Notes under the pieces: generated by a model
The model's input: only the letters and a program-made list of their open reading frames with translations
Databases searched by the model: none
Told to the model about the DNA's origin: nothing
In this document: positions 30,627-33,060 of the stretch, in pieces
Layout: every line of letters starts with the position of its first letter
Numbering within the stretch: the first letter of the stretch is position 1
Made by a program: the position numbers and the translations under genes
From: Bacteriovorax sp. BSW11_IV
GTDB taxonomy: Bacteria > Bdellovibrionota > Bacteriovoracia > Bacteriovoracales > Bacteriovoracaceae
Length of the DNA stretch: 49,803 nt
Direction of reading: 5' to 3'
Assembly: GCF_000447755.1 (NCBI RefSeq)
Contig: NZ_AUNE01000057.1
Span: 1-49,803, forward strand

Positions 30627-31058
30627 TCATAGGAAAATAAATAAAGATGCAAAAAGAGCAATAAGTACAAGAACAATAAGTTCGAATGTATAACTCTTTT
30701 TTTGATCGCTAGTTTTAAATGATCCATGAGTTCTGAAATGTGGATCATTGATATTATCTATTAGGTATTGAATATCACGATACGGCGTAATTCCATGGAA
30801 ACTATAGAGAATCTCTCTGTCCTCACAAATATGAATCGTTGGAACTGCCCTGATTCCAAAGTGAGAAGCAAGCTCTGGTTCTTCATCGGTATCAACTTCA
30901 AAAACCATGAAATGAGGATTTTCAGTTCTGACTTTGTCGAGAACTGGCGCCATTGTATTACATGGTCCACATGTTGTTGAACCAAATTTTATGGCAAAGG
31001 GTTTTCGTTGGGAGCTTATTTGAGCATCAAAATTTTCTAGAGTTAATTTAGTATCCAT
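30627..31058 (-). CDS. Thioredoxin-fold protein with C-terminal membrane anchor
   Basis: A 143-aa protein with a thioredoxin domain (residues 1-105): redox site CGPC (30-33), the cis-Pro loop AVPTIHI, and no signal peptide. Residues 122-143 form one hydrophobic helix at the very end, so the domain is tail-anchored with the active site on the cytoplasmic face. It starts 1 base after the desaturase stop codon and has no ribosome binding site of its own, so it is translationally coupled. A role in reducing or protecting the desaturase system is an inference. Confidence 0.86.
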   Translation of the reverse strand: MDTKLTLENFDAQISSQRKPFAIKFGSTTCGPCNTMAPVLDKVRTENPHFMVFEVDTDEEPELASHFGIRAVPTIHICEDREILYSFHGITPYRDIQYLIDNINDPHFRTHGSFKTSDQKKSYTFELIVLVLIALFASLFIFL

Positions 31059-31059
31059 A

Positions 31060-32007
31060 TTACGCGTGACTTCTCTTTTTTCTTACAATTCTCATGTATA
31101 AATCAATATTCTTATTAAAGATAAAGTCAAAAAGAACTTTTGTCCATGATGTATGATAGTAGAGGTCGTTGTAGTACTCAGGTGCAATAGCACGAACCTT
31201 TGGTAAGTAGACCCATGGTATTTTTAAGAAATCATGGTGTTCATTATGGTAGCCAATATTAAAGCTAAGTTTATTTAAAGGTCCATAGTAGCTGTAGGTC
31301 TCTTGTCCTTCTTTGTATGTGTAGTGTTCTTGTATCCATCTTGCACCAACAGGATGAAGACCAACACTGAAGAAGGTCGAAATTAGAATGTAATAAAGCG
31401 CCATGGGTCCAATCATTAGATAAATCAGAATATTAAAAGCAATGACGATGACAATATTTAAAAACACCCAGCCATCAAAAAGTTTCGTGTTTTTAAGTTT
31501 CATAGGCCTTACTGCCTCAATGAACATAAAAAGGAGATACCAAATAACTTTACGCCACCAAATATTTTTAACGAGCTTGGCCTCAAAATGAAAAGCAAGA
31601 TCGGCATCATAATCAAGTTCATTTAAATTGGAATGATGAACAAGATGGAATGTTCTAAAACCAATAGCACTTGGAAATCCTTGTGCTAAATTGCATACGA
31701 TACCAATGACTTTATTTGCGGTATTTCCCTTGAAAATTGCATTGTGACAGGCCTCGTGAATCATGACAAAAAGAGCGTGGTTTGCAATAGCGCCAACAAT
31801 AAATGCGAAACTAAGCATGACCCAAATACTTTTATCATTAACATAATAAGCAATGGTAATCTGCCCTAAGGTGATAAGAATGATATAAAGAGCAGAAAGA
31901 GGGTATGGCCGAATGAGGTCCCTAATATGCGGGTACTTTTTTAATATGGCCTTTGAACGAATGCCATGGGGGTTACTTTCTGTTGTGTAAGTAAAGTCAT
32001 GTCTCAT
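31060..32007 (-). CDS. Membrane fatty-acid/sphingolipid desaturase, DEGS1-like
   Basis: A 315-aa di-iron membrane desaturase with three His boxes: HEACH (84-88), HLVHH (121-125) and HNEHH (254-258), and four to six membrane helices. Beyond the boxes it matches sphingolipid delta-4 (dihydroceramide) desaturases: an N-terminal DF-x-YTTESNPH...ILKKYPHIRDLIRP segment, GLHPVGARWIQEHY, ETYSYYGPLNKLSFNIGYHN, and APEYYNDLYYHTSWTKVL near the end, all recognisable in human DEGS1. Bacteriovorax stolpii is reported to contain sphingophosphonolipids, so ceramide desaturation is a reasonable hypothesis. GGAGATAAC precedes the ATG. The thioredoxin gene follows by 1 base; the amidoligase gene precedes by 43 bases. 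Confidence 0.88.
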   Translation of the reverse strand: MRHDFTYTTESNPHGIRSKAILKKYPHIRDLIRPYPLSALYIILITLGQITIAYYVNDKSIWVMLSFAFIVGAIANHALFVMIHEACHNAIFKGNTANKVIGIVCNLAQGFPSAIGFRTFHLVHHSNLNELDYDADLAFHFEAKLVKNIWWRKVIWYLLFMFIEAVRPMKLKNTKLFDGWVFLNIVIVIAFNILIYLMIGPMALYYILISTFFSVGLHPVGARWIQEHYTYKEGQETYSYYGPLNKLSFNIGYHNEHHDFLKIPWVYLPKVRAIAPEYYNDLYYHTSWTKVLFDFIFNKNIDLYMRIVRKKRSHA

Positions 32008-32050
32008 GTTATCTCCAACATGAAAATCATAACTTGTTATTTGCTCTTTG

Positions 32051-33046
32051 TCATTGTTCTGAAATTAACGCAAAGAGTGATTGTAAGTAGGGATCGCCCT
32101 CACTATCAATTTCATTATCATGAAGTCCTGAATAGAACTTTACTTGCTCTGGGTCCATTCTAAGGCGCGCATACTTATAAACTTCAGTGATTTTTTGCGA
32201 CAATTCTTCATCGGCAGCAAGTATTGTATCAAAGACTCTTAAGGTAAAATTAATATCTTTTAACTGCTCATTTAGATCGAGAGAACTATTGAACACACGA
32301 AGTTCAAGTGTGCCAATTTCTTCTTTATAGCGAATAATACTTTTTGGGAAAAAGACTTTTAAATCTGTTTCGCTTACAAGATTTTTCGATTGATAATTTT
32401 CTAAATTATCAATTGGCGCCACCATACTCATCGCATCGATTTGCATTCTAGATGGTTTCATTTTAAAGGCACTCTTCACTGTTTGTGAGTTGAGATAGAA
32501 GAATTTCATCACTGTTTTTAATTGGCCTATTGTTAAATTCGGAACACCATAGTGCAGATGAATACCGCCGAGCTCATCTTCTGTTTTTAAAATATTAGCG
32601 TGTTTCAATTGCTGTAGTGTAGAGGTATACAAAAGAACATCTTCTTCACTTGTCATGACGGGGGAAGTGATCTCAATGCCTTTTCCAGACTTCGTGTTAT
32701 TTAGTGAGACATCATCTAAAACAGTTAAACTTCTTTCCCTATTATTTTGAGTGAAGACTACTTTGTAAGCTGATTCTTCTTCTGTATCTTTAACAACAAT
32801 GGCATCTAAACCTGAGTTTCTATAAAGGTCTTTGATGATGATTGCGATATCGAAATTTGATAGTCCTTCGCTAACCGTACCCTCAAACTCCATTCCAAGA
32901 GTTTGGCCTGGTTTAAATGTGAGAACTTTGGTCATTTGTTCAGTTTCTTTGAAGACCTTACTAATAAGGGTAAAGCACTCATTGGCAAATGTGAGCGAAT
33001 TAAACGAGAGCGCGAGAATGAAGAGCAGGGATTTAATTATTTTCAT
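32051..33046 (-). CDS. Exported amidoligase-family protein
   Basis: The start is placed at ATG 33046 (331 aa), giving a clean signal peptide (MKIIKSLLFILALSFNSLTFA); the TTG three codons earlier has no support. The mature part has motifs of the putative amidoligase family (COOH-NH2 ligase): GMEFEG (51-56), EITSP (125-129) and GIHLHYG (161-167), which in the family bind Mg-ATP and substrate. Cytoplasmic members are thought to form amide bonds in peptide tags or cell-wall material. An ATP-dependent enzyme with a signal peptide is unusual. There is no ribosome binding site; TAAAAT ends 8 nt before the ATG. Confidence 0.72.
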   Translation of the reverse strand: MKIIKSLLFILALSFNSLTFANECFTLISKVFKETEQMTKVLTFKPGQTLGMEFEGTVSEGLSNFDIAIIIKDLYRNSGLDAIVVKDTEEESAYKVVFTQNNRERSLTVLDDVSLNNTKSGKGIEITSPVMTSEEDVLLYTSTLQQLKHANILKTEDELGGIHLHYGVPNLTIGQLKTVMKFFYLNSQTVKSAFKMKPSRMQIDAMSMVAPIDNLENYQSKNLVSETDLKVFFPKSIIRYKEEIGTLELRVFNSSLDLNEQLKDINFTLRVFDTILAADEELSQKITEVYKYARLRMDPEQVKFYSGLHDNEIDSEGDPYLQSLFALISEQ

Positions 33047-33054
33047 TTCAGGCA

Positions 33055-33060
33055 ATTTTA
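33055..33060 (-). promoter_or_regulatory. -10 element before the amidoligase gene
   Basis: TAAAAT on the minus strand, 8 nt before the ATG at 33046, with no Shine-Dalgarno in between and no clear -35. Another possible leaderless start. Confidence 0.3.

Follow-up and report, generated by a model that had tools for sequence, protein, structure and literature searches.

We describe a bacterial member of the DEGS family, encoded in a 49,803-nucleotide stretch of DNA from Bacteriovorax sp. BSW11_IV (the window, contig C57) and probably acting as a dihydroceramide (N-acylsphinganine) delta-4 desaturase, with its substrate, regiochemistry, and metal content predicted from sequence. DEGS genes cluster with serine palmitoyltransferase (SPT) genes in two bacterial phyla; the double bond that marks eukaryotic ceramide is thus probably also made by bacteria themselves. 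A sequence-only reading of the window had placed the gene at 31060-32007; the coordinates proved exact, and the gene lies on the minus strand, with an ATG start and an intact frame (Table 1).

By its sequence, the protein belongs to the DEGS family and keeps the metal-ligand boxes intact. In the Pfam search, PF08557 (Lipid_DES) scored 41 bits (curated cutoff, 23), and a search of the whole genome gave 44.8 bits at the same site; PF00487 (FA_desaturase) follows C-terminally with 98 bits (cutoff, 29.7). Chance does not explain these matches; PF08557 matches only this gene in the BSW11_IV genome and nothing in 14 control genomes. Human DEGS1/DES1, the eukaryotic sphingolipid delta-4 desaturase that converts dihydroceramide to ceramide, shares this pair of domains, the length (about 315 to 323 aa), and the three His boxes, and a BLASTP comparison with DEGS1 (323 aa; an approximate sequence) yielded 40% identity over 315 aligned positions, with few gaps and an E value of about 1e-76. 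The proposed DEGS1-type match along the whole length is thus borne out, as are the motifs quoted with it, the His boxes included. Motif GLHPVGARWIQEHY occupies residues 216-229, PEYYNDLYYHTSWTKVL lies near the C terminus, and both ETYSYYGPLN and GYHNEHHDF are present.

Table 1. Features of the desaturase gene and its two neighbors in the window
Feature	Position	Strand	Evidence or remark
Thioredoxin with C-terminal hydrophobic tail	30627..31058	-	PF00085, 68 bits; starts 1 base past the desaturase stop
DEGS-type membrane di-iron desaturase (predicted)	31060..32007	-	315 aa; Pfam domains and DEGS1 alignment
His box 3, HNEHH, residues 254-258	31234..31248	-	H254, N255, E256, H257, and H258 invariant in 23 bacterial relatives
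His box 2, HLVHH, residues 121-125	31633..31647	-	H121, H124, and H125 kept in all 23 relatives
His box 1, HEACH, residues 84-88	31744..31758	-	H84 and H88 unchanged across the 23 bacterial relatives
Lipid_DES domain (PF08557), residues 2-36, marks the N terminus of sphingolipid delta-4 desaturases	31900..32004	-	Pfam
Amidoligase_2 protein, signal-peptide-like N terminus	32051..33055	-	PF12224, 41.7 bits; 43 bases upstream of the desaturase

It is highly improbable that the protein is an ordinary glycerolipid acyl-lipid desaturase merely resembling DEGS. PF00487 is common to all such enzymes, and the NCBIfam matches of the protein include no DEGS model; the top-scoring ones, for carotenoid hydroxylase/ketolase and acyl desaturase, reach no more than 35 bits, far under cutoff. 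However, the Lipid_DES domain argues against such an enzyme, as do the three separate PF00487 desaturases of the same genome, of ordinary fatty-acid type by eye, and a sharp gap in scores. When a family profile made from 23 bacterial relatives was run over 129 Bacteriovoracales genomes, the scores fell into two classes, about 187 to 527 bits for DEGS proteins (fragments included) and at most 60.5 bits for every other desaturase. In the tree, the desaturase groups with its Bacteriovoracales relatives, and the family consists mostly of a Bdellovibrionota-Pseudomonadota group and a Bacteroidota-KSB1-Calditrichota group. DEGS1 and all the bacterial members fall on one side of the outgroup, a split supported at 83/78 in a tree with very long outgroup branches and a single eukaryotic sequence. 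Its outgroup was made of closer desaturases, and the root is still weak; an earlier tree, for which desaturases of the genome itself served as outgroup, had branch lengths at the limit and a meaningless root. We regard the bit-score gap as stronger evidence for a separate DEGS family than the tree. The sequence-only reading had named grouping with ordinary acyl-lipid desaturases as an outcome that would refute it; the family is instead discrete by score gap, and DEGS1 aligns end to end.

The occurrence of DEGS follows that of SPT. Among the 129 Bacteriovoracales genomes, 43 carry DEGS (41 by PF08557 and 2 more as fragments found by the profile) and 71 carry SPT. SPT is present in 41 of the 43 genomes with DEGS versus 30 of the 86 without it (Fisher p=5e-12); counted by genus, which is the cautious count given that these tests correct for relatedness only in part, the figures are 20/20 versus 13/28 (p=3e-5). 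Both exceptions are 84%-complete assemblies, one without SPT (G031) and one with a short SPT fragment only (G011). DEGS is found in 9 of 85 Nevskiales (Gammaproteobacteria) genomes. Each of these 9 also carries SPT, versus 36 of the 85 overall (p=2e-4). In contrast, Bacteriovoracales genomes with other, weaker desaturase matches show no association with SPT (odds ratio, 1.0), a difference hard to reconcile with an ordinary acyl-lipid desaturase.

In some genomes the two genes are also physically linked. In one Bacteriovoracales genome (G069), SPT, GNAT, Scs7-like hydroxylase, and DEGS genes are contiguous within about 4 kb, with the hydroxylase on the opposite strand, and in genus g16, DEGS and SPT lie about 4.5 to 6 kb apart. 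Eight of the nine DEGS-bearing Nevskiales have an AMP-ligase, an SDR, SPT, usually one more gene, and DEGS in series on one strand; in two of the eight, DEGS directly follows SPT. This placement within SPT gene clusters further weakens the case for a glycerolipid enzyme. Co-occurrence and operon-like linkage to SPT in two phyla go beyond what the sequence-only reading had proposed. The Nevskiales gene that separates SPT from DEGS (e.g., L079 4796-6070) matches no Pfam family at E 0.01 and by eye resembles CDP-glycerol-type transferases; it may add a head group.

In BSW11_IV itself, the desaturase and SPT genes lie on different contigs (C57 and C39, respectively). The best family of the SPT is NF047600, the Bacteroidota SPT model, at 507 bits (curated cutoff, 640). 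Since all Bacteriovoracales SPTs score below that cutoff, it was dropped as a criterion, and the bimodal score distribution was used; an SPT call in this order thus means the upper side of a score gap, 435 to 515 bits versus at most 377. Against the PDB, the BSW11_IV protein scored 397 bits to Sphingobacterium-type SPT and no more than 296 bits to the next class, so that it is closer to SPT than to KBL, BioF, ALAS, or CFAT. It is the single TIGR01825 match in the genome, in which we found no second AONS-family gene.

The presence of a sphingoid base pathway, on which the sequence-only reading had made its proposal depend, is seen on contig C39. The gene order there is SPT, GNAT-like protein, extended SDR, and Ceramidase-like membrane protein, with a PAP2 phosphatase and an FA_hydroxylase on the other strand. 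The FA_hydroxylase matches the yeast ceramide fatty acid hydroxylase Scs7 with 99 bits, and the presence of SPT and such a hydroxylase in the genome is a further likeness to the DEGS1/DES1 system. The GNAT protein is a putative N-acyltransferase. NDUFA9 is an extended-SDR-type protein. Caulobacter CerR has homology to NDUFA9 (PMC11087976), and the C39 extended SDR is CerR-like by protein type, with a presumed role to match. Compared with the Caulobacter spt/cerR/bcerS genes (PMC11087976), the bacterial DEGS clusters likewise have SPT beside a CerR-like extended SDR, in Nevskiales together with an AMP-ligase. They differ in the added DEGS gene and, in Bacteriovoracales, in a putative acyltransferase that is a GNAT-like protein. 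The Ceramidase-like membrane protein (L083 14620-15282), which adjoins the SPT cluster, reaches 25.7 bits with PF05875, under the cutoff of 32.5. Near the cluster lies a gene for a 3,798-aa protein (L083 586-11982) with a lipoprotein-signal-like N terminus and, by eye, repeated domains.

A second set of genes, on contig C48 (L139 3160-7305), comprises a PEP mutase (TIGR02320, 399 bits; cutoff, 320), a CDP-alcohol phosphatidyltransferase, a nucleotidyltransferase, and a TauD-family dioxygenase. By their predicted functions they likely form a phosphonolipid head-group cluster, in which the dioxygenase could hydroxylate aminoethylphosphonate. The PEP mutase apparently continues into a nucleotidyltransferase that the contig end truncates. 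In Bacteriovorax stolpii, of the same lineage, an SPT has been studied and a phosphonosphingolipid is known (PMC6148460, PMC5648825). The literature searched, with few subscription papers, contained no long-chain base structure for that species. That a true sphingolipid desaturase is plausible in this lineage, as suggested beforehand, is supported by family, gene content, and genomic association alike. Unlike DEGS1/DES1, the BSW11_IV enzyme has a bacterial host, and its expected substrate is a bacterial dihydroceramide, probably given a phosphonate head group.

The AlphaFold2 model of the desaturase has a mean pLDDT of 82, with low confidence at residues 219-222 and 227-234. VIA-align returned Z scores of 17.4 to 8xks_K (one chain of a chloroplast motor complex), 15.4 to the alkane monooxygenase AlkB (8f6t), and 6.2 to SCD1; the model thus predicts the fold shared by membrane di-iron desaturases and hydroxylases. 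From this fold and the invariant box histidines, the protein is read as a putative di-iron enzyme that uses O2 to oxidize the sphinganine backbone. Searches of PDB sequences, with the single sequence and with a profile, gave no match, so there is no solved DEGS to anchor the comparison. The bacterial enzymes described here offer candidates for solving a DEGS structure, none of their relatives being in the PDB searched.

In the mechanism that we propose, a polytopic membrane protein would hold a di-iron center in its three histidine boxes and, using O2 and two electrons, would take hydrogens off C4 and C5 of the sphinganine backbone, leaving a 4,5-trans double bond. The substrate would be supplied by SPT (3-ketosphinganine), the GNAT-type N-acyltransferase, the CerR-like reductase, and the Scs7-like fatty acid 2-hydroxylase, and the PEP-mutase cluster would then provide the product's phosphonate head group. 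Eukaryotic DEGS takes its electrons from cytochrome b5. No PF00173 cytochrome b5 domain was matched in the BSW11_IV genome (98% complete), in contrast to the DEGS1/DES1 setting, and another electron donor thus probably serves the desaturase.

Family membership makes delta-4 desaturation the most likely outcome of this chemistry. Human DEGS2 is bifunctional, desaturating at delta-4 and hydroxylating C4, and it has the same family and His boxes as the bacterial protein. The desaturase might accordingly work chiefly as a C4-hydroxylase, or do both as DEGS2 does, in which case 4-hydroxysphinganine (phytosphingosine-type) bases would be made in place of, or in addition to, unsaturated ones. Fold and His boxes would be the same in either case, no residue examined decides between the outcomes, and identity to DEGS1 is just 40% or so. 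The full-length match, GYHNEHHDF and ETYSYYGPLN included, was measured against DEGS1 and does not separate the two outcomes. Hydroxylation is the chief rival reading, and we hold it to be a rather unlikely main or joint activity. In the literature searched, we found neither an enzyme assay nor a lipid analysis of any bacterial DEGS member.

The DEGS family is widespread in bacteria, well beyond the Bacteriovorax lineage. GTDB representatives contain at least 539 relatives, and the best 80 of these are nearly full length, with 46 to 63% identity, and come from Bacteriovoracales, Bacteroidota, KSB1, Calditrichota, Ignavibacteriota, Methylomirabilota, and Alpha- and Gammaproteobacteria. Among 47 DEGS-bearing genomes outside Bacteriovoracales, 25 have a strong SPT match and 3 an SPT of another type or one cut by a contig end. 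Seventeen, all Bacteroidota, have no SPT match and instead a match at 276 to 300 bits, where cysteate fatty acyltransferases score; two have neither. For one of the 17, the protein scored 558 bits as a cysteate fatty acyltransferase versus 226 as SPT, and three more are 64 to 86% identical to it. The loci of these four confirmed cysteate fatty acyltransferases are L143 8436-9695, L144 5253-6545, L145 1625-2902, and L151 5016-6278. Since many DEGS-bearing Bacteroidota have this enzyme in place of SPT, substrates may vary across the family, and gene content in that phylum suggests that part of it may act on sulfonolipids.

Such variation could mean that the family accepts any sphingoid-like lipid, among them N-acyl-capnine sulfonolipids and 3-ketoceramide, and that in BSW11_IV the enzyme acts ahead of the C3 reduction or uses a different base. 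Besides the 17 Bacteroidota genomes, the order of the pathway speaks for this, as acylation is believed to precede reduction when bacteria make ceramide (PMC11087976). However, SPT being the only AONS-family gene found in BSW11_IV, no sulfonolipid route is seen there, and we consider this reading very unlikely.

A bacterial dihydroceramide delta-4 desaturase would bear on the origin of the eukaryotic enzyme. The DEGS of one Bacteriovoracales genome (G120, L121 6157-7212) is 49% identical to human DEGS1 (approximate sequence) and at most 47% identical to any full-length member of its own phylum, and in the tree the two form a clade (100/100) among the bacterial members. Its neighbors look bacterial. 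On these sequence relationships, a transfer to or from eukaryotes is possible, and because the root is weak, with very long outgroup branches, the direction of descent is not readable from the tree. One may speculate, with considerable doubt, that delta-4 ceramide desaturation is an old bacterial invention in SPT clusters of more than one phylum, that eukaryotic DEGS descended from it, and that the G120 protein is a relative of the donor's. Viruses were considered as a source of eukaryote-type sequences and set aside: no viral relative was confirmed in IMG/VR, and a viral fold search led to other desaturases only.

CarF/PEDS1, the bacterial orthologue of the human plasmalogen desaturase (as cited in PMC10191378), shows by precedent that a human lipid desaturase can have an orthologue in bacteria, although lipid and enzyme are different there. 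The literature searched, with few subscription papers, held no desaturase named in a bacterial sphingolipid pathway and no paper on bacterial DEGS, a weak sign of novelty. If bacteria make this double bond, a mixed sample may contain unsaturated sphingoid bases that no eukaryote made, and it becomes possible to test where eukaryotic DEGS came from and whether the family has a part in sulfonolipids.

The sequence-only reading had also set the gene between an exported amidoligase and a membrane thioredoxin, and the domains, the signal-like N terminus, and the hydrophobic tail agree with this (Table 1). The three genes (30627-33055, minus strand) are likely cotranscribed; a shared function is not indicated. 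Their order is kept in a congener (G002, L118) and is absent beside DEGS in the other genera examined. Confined to the genus, the context says little on function, and since DEGS neighbors differ outside it, we dropped a reading of function from the amidoligase and thioredoxin. Elsewhere in the family, one DEGS frame (L160, G048 C253:482-1416) is split over two overlapping frames, either an assembly error or a decaying copy.
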